From positions 1 to 62,907 of the IMG/VR virus record IMGVR_UViG_3300044638_001368: DNA of 62,907 nucleotides. One strand, written 5' to 3'. Below, piece by piece: positions 2,378 through 19,432 of the stretch. Within the stretch, counting starts at the first letter, position 1, and every line of letters starts with the position of its first letter. The position numbers were made by a program, and so were the translations under genes. Origin of the DNA: a virus. The notes under the pieces are model-generated. The model was not told where the DNA came from. It did no database searches and was given only the letters and a program-made list of their open reading frames with translations.

Positions 2378-3271
2378 TTACGTGGGGATTTCTACCCAGT
2401 TTGGTGTCTGGTTATCATTGATTATACCCCAAACAAGCACGCTAGCGATAGAACCGGTAGCCTGAACACCAGTTGGGAAGACGTTGGCCGTACCTGTAAC
2501 CGTTACTGTGCCTACCGATCCAGTGGCCGAGACCCCGGTGACTGCAACGTTCTGGCGTACACTAATCGCAACAGTACCAACATCCCCAGTGGCCGAGACC
2601 CCGGTGGGGGAGGCGCTAGCCCCGGCTGCAACGTCAACAGTCCCGACAAACCCCGTAGCAAAAACACCCGATACGTTAAAGTTTGCAGCGGCAGATATGG
2701 TTGCCGTACCTACAGACCCAGTGCCTGAGACCCCGGTGACGTTGACTCGTATCCCAAAAACAACAGTAACCGTGCCTACTGAACCAGTGGCATCGACCCC
2801 GGTGACGTTGGCATTAGCAGCGGCGGCGGGGGTAACTGTGCCTACCGAACCAGTGGCTTCCACCCCAGTGACGTTGGTATTAGCGGCAGCGGCGGGGGTA
2901 ACTGTGCCTACAGACCCAGTGGCCTCGACCCCAGTGACAACGGCGTTAGTGACCGCCTGAACGGTAACTGTGCCTACAGACCCAGTGGCATCAACCCCAG
3001 TGACGTTGGTATTAGCGGCAGCGGCGGGGGTAACTGTGCCTACCGAACCAATGGCTTCGACACCAATTAATGTAACATTTCCAATAGCTTGGACGGTAAC
3101 TGTACCTATGGAACCGGTGGCCTCGACCCCGGTGACATTAACCTGCTCGTTCTCAAATACCGTTACAGTGCCAATAGACCCAGTGGCATCGACTCCAGAT
3201 ACAACTACTGAAGCAGCGCCAGAGCCAGAACCTGCGAAGGTATCCGCCGCAAAGGGGAAAAAACCAAACAT
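2378..3271 (-). CDS. Repetitive virion protein built from ~20-residue GSVGTVTV units
   Basis: 297 residues, almost entirely tandem copies of a 17-22 residue unit of the form V-x-V-T-G-V-x-A-T-G-S-V-G-T-V-T-V plus a variable Ala-rich or Asn-rich link; I count about 13 units. The N-terminus starts FGFFPFAADTFAGSG. Each unit alternates hydrophobic and small residues as in beta-solenoid or fibre repeats. One unit of the same kind ends the protein at 60111-60488, and a degenerate one ends that at 11099-11536. It lies between the endolysin and the S74 tail fibre, so a fibre or baseplate-like role is likely. No enzymatic motif is visible. Confidence 0.7.
   Translation of the reverse strand: MFGFFPFAADTFAGSGSGAASVVVSGVDATGSIGTVTVFENEQVNVTGVEATGSIGTVTVQAIGNVTLIGVEAIGSVGTVTPAAAANTNVTGVDATGSVGTVTVQAVTNAVVTGVEATGSVGTVTPAAAANTNVTGVEATGSVGTVTPAAAANANVTGVDATGSVGTVTVVFGIRVNVTGVSGTGSVGTATISAAANFNVSGVFATGFVGTVDVAAGASASPTGVSATGDVGTVAISVRQNVAVTGVSATGSVGTVTVTGTANVFPTGVQATGSIASVLVWGIINDNQTPNWVEIPT
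2410..3200 (-). repeat. ~50-65 bp tandem coding repeats
   Basis: About 13 imperfect copies of a unit containing the plus-strand core ACNGTGCCTACNGANCCAGTGGC encode the GTVTV repeats of the virion protein. Two stretches are near-identical (around 2810-2900 and 2985-3060), pointing to recent internal duplication. Confidence 0.75.
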
Positions 3272-3750: not shown

Positions 3751-3978
3751 CTATGGCTGTTCAACTGTCCCAGTGGAGGTTTCTCTGTCTATTTTTAGTA
3801 CGCCTTCGCAGCATATGCTCCAATCTTCGCCTGTTTTTTGCCCACGGCTTGGAACATTGATGCAAATGTTTTTGAACAGGTATTCTTTTTCGTCTTCAAA
3901 TACACGCCAGACATGATCCATCGTCCCACGGTTTACCTGACCACGGGCCTTGTTAAACCGTATCTGGAACTGAGCCAT
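3751..3978 (-). CDS. Small conserved-looking protein, function unknown
   Basis: 75 residues with aromatic and charged residues and two Cys in ICCEG. The stop of the oxygenase gene upstream overlaps its start (ATG/TAA-type junction at 3978), and the endolysin starts 2 bp downstream, so it is translated as part of the same coupled string. No family recognised. Confidence 0.65.
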   Translation of the reverse strand: MAQFQIRFNKARGQVNRGTMDHVWRVFEDEKEYLFKNICINVPSRGQKTGEDWSICCEGVLKIDRETSTGTVEQP

Positions 3979-4616
3979 TAGACAACCTCTGCCGTTGGCG
4001 GGTGACAGACTTGGGAAACCACCGGCCTAGTGTCGATGTTCATGTGCAAGAACGTGAAGGGCTTGCTGGAGGTATTTCGGGTAAAACTGTGCGGTAGCCA
4101 CGAATTAGCAAACATCAGAGTTCCCGGCTTTGGCGTAAAGTTAATTGCACTGGATGCTGGTGAAACTACATTTACATCAGCCTCGCGCAGAGGAGACATA
4201 ACCTTACCGGGCCTTGGGTCATGGATCACCAAGCGCGGCGGGTCTTTCGGACATTCCAAAAAGTAGAATGCAACCAGCTTGCAGTCACCGTGGAGGTGGT
4301 ATTCCATAGACGAGTATTTATCGTGCTGTTGGCACCAGAACTCGGTAAAATACGTCTCCAGCCCCTCCATCACATAGCCTTGGTCCTTGAGCAGGTTCCA
4401 GCCGGTGTTGATGGTATAGTCCCAGAACGGGGTTATGCGCGGCTCATTATCGAACCCAGCCATTGTGACCGGGTAGATTTCATCCAGTTTCACTTCTTTA
4501 CGGACCTTCCGCAGGCTGTCCTTGCTGGCGGCGAGAACGTCGCTCAGGAACTCGGGCTTTTCTATGCTGTATACCGGCGACGAAAAATACTGCCACTGGT
4601 CTAGTGTGTCTGCCAT
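3978..4616 (-). CDS. Putative 2-oxoglutarate/Fe(II) oxygenase (2OG-FeII_Oxy_5-like)
   Basis: 212 residues. The double-stranded beta-helix motifs of this family can be read: His109-Gly-Asp111 (in EYHLHGD) as the proximal Fe ligands, a PP-x-L-V-I-H-D-P-R strand (127-135), a PGTLMFANSWLPHSFTRN strand with distal His176, and Lys185 or nearby as the oxoglutarate-binding basic residue. Members of this group are common in environmental phages but their substrates are not known. It is the second oxygenase in a row (the other is at 4622-5215), downstream of the collagen-like gene. Hydroxylation of a virion or host surface protein is an inference. Confidence 0.75.
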   Translation of the reverse strand: MADTLDQWQYFSSPVYSIEKPEFLSDVLAASKDSLRKVRKEVKLDEIYPVTMAGFDNEPRITPFWDYTINTGWNLLKDQGYVMEGLETYFTEFWCQQHDKYSSMEYHLHGDCKLVAFYFLECPKDPPRLVIHDPRPGKVMSPLREADVNVVSPASSAINFTPKPGTLMFANSWLPHSFTRNTSSKPFTFLHMNIDTRPVVSQVCHPPTAEVV

Positions 4617-4621
4617 GTCGA

Positions 4622-5215
4622 TTACCTAAACTGCGGGCCGGTAGTCCACACGACGATGGACTTGCGTATACCCTTGGTGACTGGGGTAACCCTGTGAAGC
4701 CTGTAGGCTGGAAAAGCCACGACCAAGCCGCGCTCTCTATTAGCAACCGTAACGTCTTTTCCGTTCATAAATTCTAATTTCCCACCCTCATATTCGCCGG
4801 GGTCGGAAAGTTGCAGTGACAGGCTTAGTTTGCGCGGACAGGTATTATCCCCGCCAGCGTCGATGTGCCAGTCATAGTGGTCGCCGCCACTGCCGTAGAC
4901 CGTGTACTGCATATCCTCCACGAACCCGTACAGATCAAAGCGGTAAAAGATTGAATTGATCTTACGGGCTATGAAGGCCATTTTATCGTAGAACCAAGCC
5001 GTATCGTTGTTGTTAGTGATCCAGCCAGTGCGCGATTGACGCCACTCAGGGGCAGTCCCGCCACCACTTATTATGGACCCAGATAGAGGTAGGTTCTGGT
5101 CACAATACGCCGAAATCCTGTCCAACTCTTCCTTAGAAAAACCGTTCTCCCAAGTGGCAAACACGTTGTTCTCAGCTTCAGTTGGCGGCGGCGGCGCAAA
5201 CACATAGTTCGACAT
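4622..5215 (-). CDS. 2-oxoglutarate/Fe(II) oxygenase, prolyl-4-hydroxylase/PKHD type
   Basis: 197 residues from the ATG complementary to 5213-5215, which overlaps the stop of the upstream gene as ATGA; a GTG one codon earlier is less likely. The full active-site set is present with normal spacing: His117-Ile-Asp119 (HYDWHID), RKLSLSLQLSDPGEYEGGKLEF as the strand following, distal His174 in AYRLHRV, and Arg184 ten residues later for 2-oxoglutarate. This matches prolyl hydroxylases and PKHD hydroxylases. Two genes upstream is the collagen-like protein at 6128-8125, whose prolines stand directly before glycine, the position such enzymes modify. Fold call is firm; substrate is inference. Confidence 0.85.
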   Translation of the reverse strand: MSNYVFAPPPPTEAENNVFATWENGFSKEELDRISAYCDQNLPLSGSIISGGGTAPEWRQSRTGWITNNNDTAWFYDKMAFIARKINSIFYRFDLYGFVEDMQYTVYGSGGDHYDWHIDAGGDNTCPRKLSLSLQLSDPGEYEGGKLEFMNGKDVTVANRERGLVVAFPAYRLHRVTPVTKGIRKSIVVWTTGPQFR

Positions 5216-5934
5216 CACAGTTTCCTATGGATGTGGTTGCGGTACACGGACTGGTTGACGAGCGTCTTCATCTTACGCATCCAGCCAGTGTTCTTCTTGT
5301 CCTCTTCTGAAACCGGACGGCACCTATGGGTCGAAAGCAGACTGTCTTTTCGGATCGGTATTACCTGCATCAAGGGCGTCCCGGCTTCTACGACACCCCG
5401 AAAATCATTCTTCGTAAATATGAAAGGAAAGTTTACATACTCGTACTGAAAGTACGGGTGATCCACAATGCCAGAGTAACAGACAAATCGGTCCTCGACC
5501 CGGTTGAGTGGCGGCAGGAATAGCAGCGAGTATTCCGGCGGCGTCTTAATCATCCACCAGTTGAGGAACTTCATGGGTGGGCGCGGGTCCGAAGGGTTCG
5601 GACATTTCTCGGAAGAGATTTGTTTAGGGTTGTGCGTTTCCACCATATTTTTGTGGAACATCCACTTAAAATCTACGCCTGATCCATCGCTGTTGGATAC
5701 AAACTCAACGTCAGCGGCCAGTGGTATAATGTAGCCAACGGAAAGCGCGTCGAGGAAGGGAGAGCATCTTTTTATGGTTGATGTTCCCAGACCCTGATTT
5801 CCCAGCTTCATAGGCAGAGCCTTGAACCAGTCGGGGATGTTCTTTTTGGAAGGGTAGGGTGTCGGGATTATACCATAGTCCTCTTCGGCGCAGAGGAACT
5901 CAATCTCGTCGTTCTTGAACGCGGTCCTAAACAT
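5215..5934 (-). CDS. Conserved-looking phage protein of unknown function in the oxygenase cassette
   Basis: 239 residues. I place the start at the ATG complementary to 5932-5934 because it overlaps the upstream stop as ATGA; a longer frame to 5994 has no such support. The protein is rich in aromatic residues and prolines (IPTPYPSKKNIPDWF, FLNWWMIKTPPEYSLLFLPP) and ends in a basic tail. It resembles proteins found beside 2OG oxygenases in cyanophage-like genomes (possibly DUF6065-like), which is from memory and not checked. No catalytic motif seen. Its end is coupled to the prolyl-hydroxylase-like gene. Confidence 0.65.
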   Translation of the reverse strand: MFRTAFKNDEIEFLCAEEDYGIIPTPYPSKKNIPDWFKALPMKLGNQGLGTSTIKRCSPFLDALSVGYIIPLAADVEFVSNSDGSGVDFKWMFHKNMVETHNPKQISSEKCPNPSDPRPPMKFLNWWMIKTPPEYSLLFLPPLNRVEDRFVCYSGIVDHPYFQYEYVNFPFIFTKNDFRGVVEAGTPLMQVIPIRKDSLLSTHRCRPVSEEDKKNTGWMRKMKTLVNQSVYRNHIHRKL

Positions 5935-6134
5935 CAGTTCTGTCCGTTGCCCCTCTTGTAGTAAATGCTCCCCCCTTTGACGGCGAGGATGCACCTAGAA
6001 ACCTCCCGCTCGCCCATGAGTATATGGTCGTCGTGAAGGTTTAATTTCTCGTTATTATTTATCCAGTTACGTTGGTACTGCGGTAATCCGTCGAACGCGG
6101 CCATGACGGCCCTGCGCCTGCTCTCGTCTACCAC
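5934..6134 (-). CDS. Small protein, function unknown
   Basis: 66 residues, charged and Asn-rich (QRNWINNNEKLNLHDDH), ending in GSIYYKRGNGQN. Its start overlaps the end of the collagen-like gene by 7 bp and its stop overlaps the next start (ATGA), so translation is coupled on both sides. No family recognised. Confidence 0.6.
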   Translation of the reverse strand: MVDESRRRAVMAAFDGLPQYQRNWINNNEKLNLHDDHILMGEREVSRCILAVKGGSIYYKRGNGQN

Positions 6135-8125
6135 GTTACCGTAATTGTACCAGAACCACCACCCGATCCTACGGTGACGGAGATTTGTTGGAAGGGATAA
6201 ACCTGAGATGCGGTGGTGTTACTTGTGGGGGCTACAGAACCAGAATTGCCAGCGCCGCCTGAGTTAAAGGACCCTGCGTTACCAGAAGTTGCGCCTGTAC
6301 CCGCCGAGCCGGTAGTACCTGCATTACCGTTAGCCCCCGCATTGCCCGGTGTGCCTGCGCTGCCAGCAGTAGCGCCTGTACCATTCGCGCCGGTAGTACC
6401 TGCGTTACCGTTCGCTCCAGCGTTACCCGGAGAGCCTGCACTACCGCCAGTCGCACCGTTGCCGTTTGCGCCCGTAGTACCTGCGTTACCGTTTGCCCCA
6501 GCATTGCCCGGATTACCCGCGCCGCCGCCTGTCGCACCGCTACCACCGCCACCGGGATTACCCCCTGCGCCAGAACCACCAGCATTACCGGCACTGCCGC
6601 AAGCATAGCAACCACCGGCACCACCGCCGTTACCGGCACTTGTATTATTACCCGCTAATCCCGGATTGCCGCCACCGCCACCCTGTCCGCCAGCACCGCC
6701 GCCACCACCGCCACCACCGCCTGTGGAACCAGCATTGCCAGCCGCGCCCGGATTACCCGCACCGCCCGCGCCGCCGCCGTTACCGCCGTTACCATTACTA
6801 CCGGGGTTGCCCGAATTGCCTGTAGCGCCGGGATTGCCAGCATTACCCCTAGCCCCACCTGCGCCGCCATTACCATTGGTGCCGGGATTGCCCGAATTGC
6901 CTGTAGCGCCGGGATTGCCAGCATTACCCCTAGCCCCACCAGCCCCACCAGTACCGTTATTACCGGGATTGCCGGGGTTCCCGGTGCCGCCCGAATTACC
7001 AGCAGCGCCGCCCGTTCCATTGGCACCCGTTCCAGCAGTTCCGCCATTACCGCCAGCGCCGCCAGCAAAGCTCGCTATGTTACCAAAAGTTGTCGCGTTC
7101 CCCGTATTACCGGGATTGCCGACATTGCCGTTTGCAGCGCCCGTGCCTGCGTTACCATTTGCGCCAGCATTACCCGGACTACCAGCAGCGCCAGAAGTTG
7201 CGCCTGTACCATTCGCGCCGGTAGTACCCGCATTACCGTTGGCCCCGGCATTACCGGGGCTACCAGCCGCACCAGCATTTGCACCAGTGCCATTAGCGCC
7301 GGTATTACCGGCATTCCCGTTTGCTCCTGCGTTACCCGGAGAGCCCGCGCTACCGCCTGTCGCACCGCTACCACCGCCACCGGGATTACCCGGATTTCCG
7401 TTCGCGCCAGCATTACCCGGATTACCGCCGCTACCGCCTGACCCACCGCCACCGCCACCGCCGCCACCGCCGCCAATGTTGTAATTACAGCAACCTTGAG
7501 GAGAGCCAAGGCCACCACCGCCGCCCGTTCCACCAAAAGGACTACCACCGGGTCCGCCGGATCCACCCGCAGGAAACCCTGCATTCCCACCAGTACTTCC
7601 TCCCGGATTGCCAGCCGCGCCGCCACAGCCAAAATAAGAGCCGCCGCCGCCGCCGTTACCACCCGCGCCACCCGCACCGCCACTACCGCCATTACCGTTA
7701 TTACCGGGGTTGCCAGCGTTGCCCGACGCACCGGGGTTACCTGCATTGCCGCGTGCGCCACCAGCGCCACCGTTGCCATTAGTGCCGGGATTGCCCGAAT
7801 TACCTGTAGCGCCGGGATTACCTGCATTGCCGCGTGCGCCACCAGCGCCGCCATTACCATTGGTGCCGGGATTGCCAGCGTTTCCTGTCGCACCGGGGTT
7901 GCCTGCGCTCCCCCCTGCTCCACCAGCGCCACCATTGCCGTTATTGCCCGGATTACCCGGATTTCCAGCAGTACCGGGATTACCGGCACCGCCCGCATTA
8001 CCCGTTCCGCCTTTGCCAGACAAATTAACGCTGTAGACCCCAGTCGGAACCGTAAAGGTTCCCGACGTGTTGAAGGTCTGGCTGCTGGACCCGACGCTAG
8101 TCGAGCCGAGGTGGGGCAGAGGCAT
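6128..8125 (-). CDS. Long collagen-like/glycine-rich virion protein
   Basis: 665 residues. An N-terminal FNTSGTFTVPTGVYSVNL entry strand is followed by long blocks in which every third residue is Gly: triplets such as Gly-Asn-Pro, Gly-Ala-Thr, Gly-Asn-Ala, Gly-Asn-Gly. Proline almost always precedes Gly (the Y position). Blocks are separated by poly-Gly stretches and three small cysteine clusters (YFGCGG, GCCNYN, GCYACGS). The C-terminus returns to beta-like sequence (YPFQQISVTVGSGGGSGTITVTW). Such proteins could form a triple helix or a polyglycine-II sandwich as in some phage adhesins. It heads a coupled group with two 2OG oxygenases. A receptor-binding fibre is the likely role. Confidence 0.8.
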   Translation of the reverse strand: MPLPHLGSTSVGSSSQTFNTSGTFTVPTGVYSVNLSGKGGTGNAGGAGNPGTAGNPGNPGNNGNGGAGGAGGSAGNPGATGNAGNPGTNGNGGAGGARGNAGNPGATGNSGNPGTNGNGGAGGARGNAGNPGASGNAGNPGNNGNGGSGGAGGAGGNGGGGGSYFGCGGAAGNPGGSTGGNAGFPAGGSGGPGGSPFGGTGGGGGLGSPQGCCNYNIGGGGGGGGGGGSGGSGGNPGNAGANGNPGNPGGGGSGATGGSAGSPGNAGANGNAGNTGANGTGANAGAAGSPGNAGANGNAGTTGANGTGATSGAAGSPGNAGANGNAGTGAANGNVGNPGNTGNATTFGNIASFAGGAGGNGGTAGTGANGTGGAAGNSGGTGNPGNPGNNGTGGAGGARGNAGNPGATGNSGNPGTNGNGGAGGARGNAGNPGATGNSGNPGSNGNGGNGGGAGGAGNPGAAGNAGSTGGGGGGGGGAGGQGGGGGNPGLAGNNTSAGNGGGAGGCYACGSAGNAGGSGAGGNPGGGGSGATGGGAGNPGNAGANGNAGTTGANGNGATGGSAGSPGNAGANGNAGTTGANGTGATAGSAGTPGNAGANGNAGTTGSAGTGATSGNAGSFNSGGAGNSGSVAPTSNTTASQVYPFQQISVTVGSGGGSGTITVTW
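6280..8010 (-). repeat. Nested 9-, 27- and ~54-bp coding repeats of the collagen-like gene
   Basis: The coding strand is a long series of GGN-NNN-NNN triplet repeats with larger near-identical blocks, for example around 6790-6960 and 7720-7880. The plus strand therefore shows CCG/CCA-rich periodicity and long spurious proline-rich frames. Recombination among repeats is expected to vary length. Confidence 0.8.
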
Positions 8126-8567: not shown

Positions 8568-9320
8568 TTACAAGTTAGCCAAAGACAGCGAGCCGAAGTA
8601 CGTCGTGCCGCCGTCAAACGTGATGAAATTGAAAATATCAACCTTGCCAACCGTTGTTGTCAGGGAAGGAGTCGAATTATTAGGGAACTTTACAGAAGCA
8701 GGCCAAGTGGCCGTGTAGGAACCCGATCCACCCTGCTTGATAGCAATCAGGAAATTAGACGTTGTGCCGCCAGCAGCCGGGTTTGAGAACGTAAATGTCG
8801 TGCTACCGGTCAAAGTTATATTGAAAATGTTAGCCGTAGACATGTCAACGGTGAAGGTGCCGGTGACGGTTGCGTTAGTCGTGGTTGTTTCGCGGTAGGC
8901 TGCAAACGTAGGTGTGGTCAGCGCCGTTCCGTTAAAAGTTAAAGTCGCCGCATCAGTGAGTAGACCATCAGTTGTAACAAAAGGCACACGACCTGAAGTA
9001 AGCGCGGCGCTGTTAAGGTTTACAGACCGCTCTGAGGGGTAAGTTACGAAGACGTTGGAAGTACCACTAAGGGTGATCTTAGTAGTACCGCCCGCGCTGG
9101 AGGAAAGTACAGTAGTACGTGCTAGTGTAGTACCAGACGACGTGTAGGTACCGATACCAACTTCCCAGTTGTTACCGCTCGTAAGCGTGTAGTACGTCGT
9201 ATTACCATCACCTACAACCGCAAAAGACTGATAGCCAGTAAGGGCACCAGCAAGTGTTACCGTGCCAGTGCCCGTTGTGGTAGTCGTCTCTTGTACGCGG
9301 TCTGCGAGAACTAACGCCAT
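8568..9320 (-). CDS. Fibre-like structural protein
   Basis: 250 residues, Thr/Ser/Gly-rich and beta-prone throughout. The start (MALVLADRVQETTTTTGTGTVTLAGALTGYQSF) is a head motif I recognise from many phage structural proteins attached near the baseplate or tail; the rest (TFSNPAAGGTTSNFLIAIKQGGSGSYTATWP) resembles shaft or receptor-domain repeats. No enzymatic motif. Follows the adaptor genes and precedes the collagen-like gene. Confidence 0.65.
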   Translation of the reverse strand: MALVLADRVQETTTTTGTGTVTLAGALTGYQSFAVVGDGNTTYYTLTSGNNWEVGIGTYTSSGTTLARTTVLSSSAGGTTKITLSGTSNVFVTYPSERSVNLNSAALTSGRVPFVTTDGLLTDAATLTFNGTALTTPTFAAYRETTTTNATVTGTFTVDMSTANIFNITLTGSTTFTFSNPAAGGTTSNFLIAIKQGGSGSYTATWPASVKFPNNSTPSLTTTVGKVDIFNFITFDGGTTYFGSLSLANL

Positions 9321-16473: not shown

Positions 16474-17385
16474 TTACGGAGCGCCAGCCGAGGCGAACAT
16501 GCCCAGCGGGTCGGACCAACCGAACGAATAACGCTCGCGGCTCTTGTAACGAACGTTGCCGGTATCGAAGTCTCCGTCCATCGACTGCGTCATCGGTGCG
16601 CGGATAAAGTGCTTCAAACCATTCGGAACGTCCGTGGTCAGGAACCAAGCGTCGGTGTCGGTCAGGTAGTGGTTAACAGTGTAACCCTCCGGGATCGAAC
16701 CGTTGCTCTTCAGAGCGTTGATGTCGTTGTCGGCGGTGCTTACACGGAGTTCAGTCTCCAGCAAGCGGGTCGAAACGAACATCAGGCTCGGCGGGACAAC
16801 CAACTTACGGGGCTTAGCTGCGATGAGCAGGCCGCGTTCATCCGTCCAAGCCGCGATCTGAATTACGGCAGCTTCGAGGCTGGTTTCATTCAGGTCGGCA
16901 GGGGTGGGCGGAATGTTGGAGTTGGTACCACCGGAAACCAGCGGATGCGAAGCGCTGAACAGAGGCTGACCGTCGCCGCCCAGATAGGACGAGCTAAAGC
17001 CGTTGTTCAGAATCGCAGCCGCCTTGGTCTGCTTGGTATACGCCATGGCACGAGCCAGAGCCTTGGTGTAACGCGAAGACAGAGAGTCATAGAGGTTGTC
17101 CTCGATGGCTTCTTCCGTCAGCGAAAACCCAAGAGCAATCGTCTCGTGGTTGTAGCGGGCAGTGAAGACTTCCTGCGCATTGTCATAAGCAATGGCAGAG
17201 CCTTCGTTCTTAACCGGAGCAGCCGAAAAACCGGACAGCTTGGTTTCTTCTTCGAACGAGCGTTCCGAAGTTTCGGTCTCAAAGATTTCCTTATGCTCTT
17301 CGCCGTAACGAGCATATTCCAGACCGAACAGAGCGTTCAGGCCGGGAAGGAGTTCCTTAAGAAGTTGTGCGCGTGAAATAGCCAT
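16474..17385 (-). CDS. Major capsid protein (Mu gpT-like)
   Basis: 303 residues with the features of the HK97-fold Mu major-head-subunit family: N-terminal MAISRAQLLKELLPGLNALFGLEYARY, RYNHETIALGFSLTEEAIEDNLYDSLSSRYTKALARAM (spine helix region), GDGQPLFSASHPLVSGGTNSN (E-loop-like and conserved), LLIAAKPRKLVVPP, and C-terminal AMT..SMDGDFDTGNVRYKSRERYSFGWSDPLGMFAS. Preceded by scaffold and followed by a strong terminator, as expected for the most abundant head protein. Confidence 0.9.
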   Translation of the reverse strand: MAISRAQLLKELLPGLNALFGLEYARYGEEHKEIFETETSERSFEEETKLSGFSAAPVKNEGSAIAYDNAQEVFTARYNHETIALGFSLTEEAIEDNLYDSLSSRYTKALARAMAYTKQTKAAAILNNGFSSSYLGGDGQPLFSASHPLVSGGTNSNIPPTPADLNETSLEAAVIQIAAWTDERGLLIAAKPRKLVVPPSLMFVSTRLLETELRVSTADNDINALKSNGSIPEGYTVNHYLTDTDAWFLTTDVPNGLKHFIRAPMTQSMDGDFDTGNVRYKSRERYSFGWSDPLGMFASAGAP

Positions 17386-17399
17386 TTGTCATGTTCTCC

Positions 17400-18017
17400 T
17401 TAAACGCCGGTAGGCTGGGTATACTGGTGCCCGCCAACAGCGCCGGTTGTCGGCGCATTCCACTTCACAATCACTTCGGTGTAAGAACCGGGATAGCCCG
17501 CGATGGCGGTTTCCGGGACCACGTCGATGATGCGAATGGGGTACGTGTTGGTGGTAGCCGTGGTAGCCAGAATAGCCACCGCAGAGTTACCAGTGATCGT
17601 GGAGCCAACGTTCTGAACCAGCAGGGCGTTGTTGCCAACGTTACTGCGATTGACATAGCCAATCGTGGTGGTGGCAGACACTACCGCAACCTTGAACAAC
17701 TGATCCGGGTCATCCGCCACGAAGGCAACGATGTCCGAAGCATAAACAGCGCCGGGATAGTACTGACGGAACGTCTTTCCGAAGACTGGGTCCGTATAGG
17801 AGCAGCCGAGAAGAACGCCAACAGGGGTAGCAGCGTCAGTGCCGGTGTCCTGAACCAGAAGTCCGGTGTTCGCCAGCTTCACAACGTCACCATAAAAGAT
17901 GGCCGTCGCGGAGTTGGAAGCAATCGGAATCTGGCGCGTCGCGCCTGCAAAAACCTGCCCGCCAATCAGATTGATCGGAAGAAGCCCATACGGGGCTGTG
18001 ACAGAAGGGTATGCCAT
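17400..18017 (-). CDS. Capsid-associated structural protein
   Basis: 205 residues. MAYPSVTAPYGLLPINLIGGQVFAGATRQIPIASN at the start, then GDVVKL, PVGVLLGCSYTDPVFGK and YPGAVYASDIVAFVADDPDQLFKV: the pattern of a small-barrel head protein encoded just before the capsid gene in many environmental phages. Probably a decoration or minor capsid protein. Confidence 0.75.
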   Translation of the reverse strand: MAYPSVTAPYGLLPINLIGGQVFAGATRQIPIASNSATAIFYGDVVKLANTGLLVQDTGTDAATPVGVLLGCSYTDPVFGKTFRQYYPGAVYASDIVAFVADDPDQLFKVAVVSATTTIGYVNRSNVGNNALLVQNVGSTITGNSAVAILATTATTNTYPIRIIDVVPETAIAGYPGSYTEVIVKWNAPTTGAVGGHQYTQPTGV

Positions 18018-18030
18018 TAGTTTCTCCTAG

Positions 18031-18480
18031 TTATTTGCCTTTGCCAAACGAGGACGAAGACTTCCTTTCACTAAAAAGGGGCATCTTCGGATTGTTCTCG
18101 CGCATAAAGTTATTGTCTACCGACTCGATTTGGTCTCGGTTCTTCTTAGCGAAGTATTCGCTGCGTTGAGCCATGAACTCCTCGGGAATCTTGCAGAGCA
18201 ACAACCCACCGACCTCAATGTTGTTCTTAAAACGACTATTGGGGTCCACCATCATGTGGAACTTGGGCTGTTCTTCGGACTTTACTGGTTCCCAACCTTC
18301 GCGCATCTTCGCAGACACATTGCTCGGGTCGGCTACATTCAAGTTCGAAACACGAATCCACCGGTACGAATATCCGGGCTGTTTGTCCGGTTCAGGCAGG
18401 GCCGAAGCTGGCTGCCATGATTTGGGACGCTCGGACTGGGTACGGTTTTCAAGTTCGCGTGCAAGTCTAGTCTCAGCCAT
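18031..18480 (-). CDS. Head-associated protein of unknown function
   Basis: 149 residues, charged, with PGYSYRWIRVSNLNVADPSNVSAKMREGWEPVKSEEQPKF, a motif I recall from phage head clusters, and a Ser/Lys tail (KSSSSFGKGK). Located between scaffold and capsid protein, so it takes part in head assembly. Confidence 0.7.
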   Translation of the reverse strand: MAETRLARELENRTQSERPKSWQPASALPEPDKQPGYSYRWIRVSNLNVADPSNVSAKMREGWEPVKSEEQPKFHMMVDPNSRFKNNIEVGGLLLCKIPEEFMAQRSEYFAKKNRDQIESVDNNFMRENNPKMPLFSERKSSSSFGKGK

Positions 18481-18481
18481 T

Positions 18482-19432
18482 TTAGTTCTCCAACTTTCTC
18501 AGTTCCCGGGCGTACTGCTCGGGGGTTAAACCTAACTTCTTCGCAAGTAGAACTTGCGATTGTTTCAGTACGATCTTTTTGGAGGACGTACTGCGAGAGG
18601 CCGAAGCAACTACTGTGGCTGGCTTGGTTTCGGTGCGCGTAACGGGCTTGCCGCCCCCGTTAGCCGGTTGTTCCTGCTCCCCAAAATACTCTGGAAAGCG
18701 GCGGCGCATCGTGTCATCGACGTTGCGCCAATACTCGTCAGTACCAACATATTCTTTGCCGTACTGTTTTTCGAGTTTCTGATGGTATCCCAAAGCAAGG
18801 GATGTCATCTCCACGTCTGTTCCCCACCACGTATTGCGCTCTTGCCACGCAGTAGTCTTAGGGTCGAGACGCGGAGCTTGGGCCACGTCCTGAGCAATTT
18901 CTACCTCAGGTTCTGGAGCTTGTAAAGTAGACCTATAGTTTTTTAGCTGATGCAGGCGGTAGTTAGCGTCTGTCATCTTTTCCTGAGCTTCGACAACCTT
19001 GTCCGAGTCCCCGGCTTCGTAGGCTTCCTTGTAGGCTTTCCGTGCCGCAGTCATCTCCATTTCCGCAGAGTTCTTGGAGGTATCGACCAGCATCTGCTCA
19101 CCCTGAGACAGGCTGTTCTTTAGGCGGCGGTTCTCATCAACGACGCGGCGGGCTAAGTTAATGGCCTCCTGCTGTTCGCGGACAGCAGCTTCCTTTTCCC
19201 GACGCTCATCGTGCCAGACCTTCTTCATCTGCTTGAGTCGGGTCTTGACCTTGTCGGAGTATTCCTCCAGCTCGTCGGCTTCCAGCTCATCAACCAGAGC
19301 CTTGGGCATCGGGGTCTTACCCCGGTCTTCTACTGGAGTGTCATCCTCAACTTCGATTTCAGGCTTCTCCGCGCCTTCGATCTCTATTTCTAGGTCTTGG
19401 ATATCGTCCTTTTTCTTAGTATTATCAGCCAC
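18482..19432 (-). CDS. Scaffold-like protein
   Basis: 316 residues. A very acidic N-terminus (about residues 9-60), a long coiled-coil helix (around 65-180), then a mixed segment and a basic, Ser/Lys-rich C-terminus (RSTSSKKIVLKQSQVLLAKKLGLTPEQYARELRKLEN). Acidic/helical body with a basic C-terminal capsid-contact helix is the usual design of phage scaffolds; position immediately upstream of the head genes agrees. Confidence 0.75.
   Translation of the reverse strand: MADNTKKKDDIQDLEIEIEGAEKPEIEVEDDTPVEDRGKTPMPKALVDELEADELEEYSDKVKTRLKQMKKVWHDERREKEAAVREQQEAINLARRVVDENRRLKNSLSQGEQMLVDTSKNSAEMEMTAARKAYKEAYEAGDSDKVVEAQEKMTDANYRLHQLKNYRSTLQAPEPEVEIAQDVAQAPRLDPKTTAWQERNTWWGTDVEMTSLALGYHQKLEKQYGKEYVGTDEYWRNVDDTMRRRFPEYFGEQEQPANGGGKPVTRTETKPATVVASASRSTSSKKIVLKQSQVLLAKKLGLTPEQYARELRKLEN

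Follow-up and report, generated by a model that had tools for sequence, protein, structure and literature searches.

A phage gene cassette encoding a putative prolyl hydroxylase beside its proposed substrate, a glycine-rich Gly-X-Y protein

Introduction

Whether a phage hydroxylates its own fibre is the question raised by a locus in the IMG/VR virus record IMGVR_UViG_3300044638_001368, in which a collagen-like protein is encoded close to genes of 2OG/Fe(II) oxygenase families. Published viral and phage collagens contain little proline at the Y position and are described as hydroxylase-free (PMC3368898), and the prolyl 4-hydroxylase (P4H) of Bacillus anthracis acts on collagen-like (PPG)n peptides (PMC8968730). 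No description of phage fibre hydroxylation was found in a search of mostly open-access literature. The locus is read here as a fibre-modification cassette in which one oxygenase, OXY3, is the putative prolyl hydroxylase of the Gly-X-Y fibre, an assignment that is considered likely from sequence comparisons.

Gene organization of the cassette

The source record is a linear virus of 62.9 kb with genes for portal, terminase, major head protein, DNA polymerase and helicase, among others. The closest isolates by portal protein (approximately 44% identity) include Pelagibacter phage HTVC027P and Planktothrix phage Pag-Yong1. In the window, which is the whole stretch of 62,907 nucleotides analysed, the cassette and the genes flanking it are arranged as follows:

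8568-9320, minus strand: tail-fibre gene with a phrog_9017 C-terminal domain, upstream of the cassette; the domain also precedes the cassette at loci L004, L085, L087 and L088
8128-8553, minus strand: T141, a conserved 141-aa cassette protein of putative role, found in most complete cassettes
6128-8125, minus strand: glycine-rich Gly-X-Y protein of 665 aa, the proposed substrate, with beta-strand caps at both ends, 29 GxPG, 27-residue repeats and 5 Cys
5934-6134, minus strand: S66, a conserved 66-aa cassette protein that recurs in the cassettes of relatives
5215-5934, minus strand: phrog_7084 protein of 239 aa (phrog_7084, 1.3e-53), with a predicted dUTPase-like fold and a weak DUF6065 match
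4622-5218, minus strand: OXY3, a 2OG-FeII_Oxy_3 / P4H-PKHD-like oxygenase (PF13640, 1.2e-13) with H117-x-D119 ... H174 ... R184
3978-4616, minus strand: OXY5, of the 2OG-FeII_Oxy_5 family (PF13759, 3.6e-8), with H107-x-H109 ... H176
3751-3978, minus strand: 75-aa protein after OXY5, kept in near relatives

Neighbouring cassette genes share 1-7 nt or are at most 5 nt apart, in keeping with the overlapping or abutting genes of a preliminary description of this DNA, whose coordinates were correct. That description placed the first oxygenase two genes away from the Gly-X-Y protein; more exactly, the genes of the 66-aa and 239-aa proteins (the latter starting at 5934) both lie between them.

Searches with T141 against Pfam and PHROG profiles gave no match. 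The phrog_7084 protein was modelled by AlphaFold2 with a pLDDT of 84, and its best PDB folds were dUTPases, albeit weak matches (E 7.7e-4, query TM about 0.3-0.4); its candidacy as a third oxygenase was dropped after this fold search. The phrog_7084, 66-aa and 141-aa proteins probably serve fibre assembly, which for phrog_7084 is a guess.

Other minus-strand genes of the window encode a 297-aa protein of TGV.ATGSVGTVTV repeats (2378-3271), to which a gene after the cassette in L376 is similar; a 390-aa tail-type protein (1196-2368) with a long ATTATTATT stretch followed by an intramolecular-chaperone-like C-terminus (SDMRLKDVYGPI); and a second glycine-rich, fibre-tip-like protein (474-1193) with a weak PF21722 match and without GNPG repeats.

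Distribution of the cassette and linkage of its genes

Relatives were gathered by searches with OXY3, phrog_7084, S66 and T141 and then dereplicated, which gave 52 cassettes, one halovirus match being left out. This survey of other genomes for the same neighbours, proposed in the preliminary description, found a conserved cassette in very different phages. The carriers include podovirus-like and T4-like phages and contigs of 140-360 kb; L011, L087 and L088 carry sheath and neck genes judged T4-like from their sequences. The recurring order is tail fibre, 141-aa protein, Gly-rich protein, 66-aa protein, phrog_7084, OXY3 and sometimes OXY5, with slight variation (in L121, OXY3 lies ahead of the 141-aa gene). 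These genes evidently travel together as a unit.

A Gly-rich open reading frame was found nearby at all 49 dereplicated cassette loci with enough flank, 44 of which carry OXY3. The three cassettes lacking one (L111, L132 and L133) have only 3-731 bp of upstream sequence before the end of the contig. Distant (outgroup) OXY3 homologs had such a neighbour at none of 37 loci with comparable flanks, and the link to the Gly protein is therefore a property of this OXY3 subfamily and not of phage oxygenases generally. The preliminary description had raised, against its own proposal, the possibility of oxygenases being equally frequent where no collagen-like neighbour is present; this fails for the cassette subfamily and holds for distant relatives only.

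Among cultured phages, no isolate with the cassette was found, the best OXY3 homologs having at most 42% identity. In bacterial genomes, OXY3 gave no match and phrog_7084 gave two, one being a phage fragment inside a metagenome-assembled genome (MAG). In the Dehalococcoidia MAG CP070693.1 (L376:9789-13375), genes for the 66-aa protein, phrog_7084 (65% identity) and OXY3 are followed by tail genes like those at 2378-3271 and 1196-2368 of the source record. This piece has bacterial genes on both sides in the MAG chromosome and is either an assembly chimera or an integrated fragment. The cassette-bearing contig L225 contains on its opposite strand (17357-19420, minus strand) a second, divergent phrog_7084 with its own OXY3, next to which no Gly-X-Y open reading frame was called.

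The presence of phrog_7084 is not enough to define the cassette, since haloviruses have it but lack OXY3 and the 66-aa gene. In HSTV-2 (L096:6893-10158) and HF2 (L097:6896-9753), phrog_7084 relatives of approximately 40% identity face a tail cluster on the opposite strand; this cluster contains a different protein of 345-346 aa with 26-27% Gly, and no OXY3.

The Gly-X-Y protein

The 665-aa protein contains 270 Gly, 101 Asn, 100 Ala, 38 Pro and 6 charged residues (His counted). Its description as a Gly-x-x protein with proline before glycine was confirmed by 29 GxPG against 0 GPxG, although the triplet repeat is interrupted: runs of at least five triplets cover 432 of the 665 residues, with phase breaks between them. 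The longest stretches without a break count 42 and 37 triplets, with shorter ones connecting them, and poly-Gly runs reach 11 residues. Beta strands are found at the start (TFNTSGTFTVPTGVYSVNLSG) and at the end (VYPFQQISVTVGSGG..TITVTW) and recur in most relatives.

Between these strands lie arrays with a single main period in each Gly protein, commonly 27 residues and otherwise 30, 33 or 36, with proline at fixed registers. In C-terminal arrays, every repeat has one triplet without Gly (ATA/ATS), always in the same register. The X and Y positions are mostly occupied by Asn, Ala, Gly, Thr and Ser; proline is rare at X and charge is almost nil. The 665-aa protein scores 22.3 bits with the Pfam collagen profile (PF01391), below the cut-off of 27.2, whereas some relatives exceed it (L087, 61.7; L178, 54.9; L188, 35.1 bits). 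Animal collagens and the 'spindle fibril' 8zxl came up as PDB matches of the Gly protein but were set aside as compositional.

OXY3 and the position of proline

OXY3 scores above the PF13640 cut-off and has the HxD...H iron triad together with a basic residue for 2OG. The residues named in the preliminary description, His117, Asp119, His174 and Arg184 (with the ATG at codon 2 as residue 1), were borne out, all four being invariant in nine relatives. Profile searches against the PDB matched PKHD-type hydroxylases (PiuC/PKHD) at 1.5e-11 and prolyl 4-hydroxylases (3itq/5hv0) at 0.004, and PiuC/PKHD enzymes are thus the closest solved relatives, which weighs against the reading of OXY3 as a prolyl hydroxylase. 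By its active-site residues, OXY3 is assigned to the P4H superfamily, with a putative prolyl hydroxylase activity.

The Gly proteins of OXY3-bearing cassettes contain 1262 GxPG and 50 GPxG, and the bias towards Y is present in 40 of 40; the residue preceding Pro is Asn in approximately 60%. Other collagen-like fibres on the same contigs mostly have the reverse pattern or little proline (265 Pro at X and 11 at Y), for example 65 X and 3 Y in L083 and 121 X and 0 Y in L208. Further collagen-like fibres in the L188 and L197 records have no comparable Y bias. The scarcity of Y-position proline in these ordinary fibres matches the published statement on viral and phage collagens (PMC3368898).

Five cassettes (L244, L250, L251, L254 and L316) lack OXY3 and have kept phrog_7084 and OXY5; OXY3 is absent from their whole records of 38-87 kb. 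Their Gly proteins contain 0.5-1.53 Pro-Gly per 100 aa, compared with 2.17-9.6 in the 40 with OXY3. Among the 20 residues, Pro is the one most tied to OXY3 before and after phylogenetic contrasts (Pagel, p=0.002; independent contrasts, p=0.004), and background Pro does not differ between loci with and without OXY3. The Gly proteins of the five are compact (about 430-460 aa), but size as the cause of low Pro-Gly is argued against by L245, a member of the same clade that has OXY3 and a 446-aa protein of the same architecture with 15 Pro-Gly (3.4 per 100). OXY3 loss represents one or two evolutionary events, all five losers falling in one clade with L245, and the comparison is therefore suggestive rather than strong.

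The linkage of the genes, the Y-position bias and the loss of sites with the loss of the enzyme are all observed. They support the proposal of the preliminary description that a P4H-like enzyme has the phage's own fibre as substrate. Since the Gly protein always adjoins the oxygenases and its Pro count tracks OXY3, phages probably hydroxylate their own fibres, and for the present phage and its putative fibre this reading is well supported by comparison of the loci.

OXY5 and cysteine

The second oxygenase of the preliminary description is present as a PF13759 enzyme at 3978-4616, and all 16 OXY5 members match this profile; it departs from the first in having HxH...H rather than HxD...H. The HxH and distal His are those of the Pfam family. 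Phe187 is invariant in the 16 members, whereas generic phage PF13759 homologs have Arg at this position (...LRVSIAFN), 11 residues past the distal His; a role of this Arg in 2OG binding is inferred by analogy with OXY3. The HxH...H motif could form a three-His iron site like that of thiol dioxygenases.

At least three cysteines, a threshold chosen after inspection of the data, are present in the Gly protein in 15 of 15 cases with OXY5 and in 1 of 30 without it, the latter from L011, a 10.8-kb fragment. OXY5 was absent from 23 of 24 whole OXY5-negative records, the other one containing a remote match (26% identity). OXY5 and Cys arise jointly at about five places on the phrog_7084 tree, each time against a sister lacking both (Pagel, p=1.7e-6; contrasts, p=0.003, with Cys at the top of 20 residues). 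Both the OXY3-Pro and the OXY5-Cys link survive phylogenetic correction. The Cys content of other open reading frames is 0.92% with OXY5 and 0.62% without (p=0.019), which is a partial confounder.

A recurrent loop of the Gly protein, APxxWxGK.G, contains Cys in the presence of OXY5 (APCTWPGKCGTAG or APTCWSGK) and mostly Ser, Thr or Asn in its absence (mostly APTNWTGKAG or APNSWTGQAG). An example of a Cys-loop peptide is AAPCTWPGKCGTAG. OXY5 probably acts on these Cys-bearing loops.

Alternative explanations

The preliminary description suggested that hydroxylation stabilises a triple helix and named a polyglycine-II fold as the alternative. A true collagen triple helix of three Gly-X-Y chains is unlikely. 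The long unbroken runs of triplets, the collagen scores of L087, L178 and L188 and the Y-position proline, which is the animal-collagen pattern (PMC3368898), speak for it, but the source-record protein falls below the collagen cut-off, Pro is rare at X, and charge is near zero. The equal-length repeats of 27, 30, 33 or 36 residues, the Gly-less triplet in each repeat of the C-terminal array, the poly-Gly runs and the near lack of charge are the reasons for preferring polyglycine II, and by this repeat pattern a polyglycine-II fibre tip would fit better than the triple helix, which was not borne out. AlphaFold2 modelled the L245 Gly protein with a pLDDT of only 36, too low to discriminate between the two folds, and predicted beta strands at both ends alone.

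It is quite improbable that the targets of the oxygenases lie elsewhere, in the host or in the phage (auxiliary metabolism or further tail proteins, for example), and that nothing more than a common operon or mobile module joins these enzymes to the fibre gene. Phage 2OG oxygenases are common and are frequently classed as auxiliary metabolic genes (phrog_61, phrog_81), and the cassette evidently travels as a block; linkage alone, however, would not tie the content and position of Pro or the content of Cys to each enzyme, background Pro is equal and background Cys only slightly different, and the outgroup OXY3 never adjoins such a gene. Lineage or host composition, in place of enzyme-substrate pairing, is also held to be quite unlikely as the source of the two links. 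The higher Cys content of other genes beside OXY5, the post hoc Cys threshold and the few OXY3 losses are in its favour, whereas the repeated co-occurrence of OXY5 and Cys against sisters without both, the first place that the matching residue takes among all 20 for each enzyme once independent contrasts are applied, and the exchange of Cys in a single loop argue against it.

Proposed mechanism and comparison with known systems

In the preferred reading, the Gly-X-Y protein would be a glycine-rich tail-fibre or fibre-tip protein, and OXY3 would hydroxylate the prolines of its Gly-x-Pro-Gly sites (mostly Gly-Asn-Pro-Gly) during assembly in the infected cell; we infer the 4-position chemistry, its timing and its advantage. 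In the likeliest fold, passes of equal length would be stacked in the manner of polyglycine II, with a beta-strand cap at either end, and the hydroxyprolines would line up in regular rows on this stack. A more tentative proposal, possible but doubtful, is a two-enzyme, two-residue system in which OXY3 hydroxylates Gly-x-Pro-Gly and OXY5, three-His-like and without the Arg, oxidises loop cysteines of the polyglycine-II fibre in the manner of thiol dioxygenases.

The cassette would work like a collagen and prolyl-hydroxylase pair, although the source-record protein fails collagen-family membership by score. It shares with animal collagen and its P4H, and with the B. anthracis P4H, the x-Pro-Gly sites, a P4H-like 2OG oxygenase and a Gly-X-Y partner. 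It differs in being one phage cassette with mainly Gly-Asn-Pro, little X-position Pro, almost no charge and fixed repeats, and in the PKHD/PiuC enzymes being the nearest fold relatives of OXY3. Ordinary phage collagen-like tail fibres likewise have Gly-X-Y repeats near tail genes, and both kinds are present in L083 and L208, but the ordinary ones have Pro at X and no hydroxylase (PMC3368898), whereas the cassette has Pro at Y and a hydroxylase-type gene alongside. The polyglycine-II adhesins of fibre tips, S16 gp38 (PMC6851490) and Pam3 gp24 (PMC9608196), resemble the cassette proteins in their Gly-rich motifs, GGGG runs, Gly domain off a beta scaffold and loops between motifs. Their domains have approximately 73-125 residues and 10-12 motifs, whereas in the cassette proteins regular Asn/Ala/Pro repeats span 400-1500 residues and dedicated oxygenases are present.

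Significance

The cassette is a ready recombinant pair of substrate and enzyme, for which the natural variants lacking one enzyme are controls. If the two-enzyme reading is true, phages would adapt the surface that meets the host by chemical modification of proteins already translated. Should one phage code for both a fibre and the hydroxylase that acts on it, phages would join the carriers of collagen-type modification. If true, this would provide a concrete substrate for many phage '2OG oxygenases' filed as auxiliary metabolic genes and would tie a post-translational modification to a part of the virion that is likely to touch the host.
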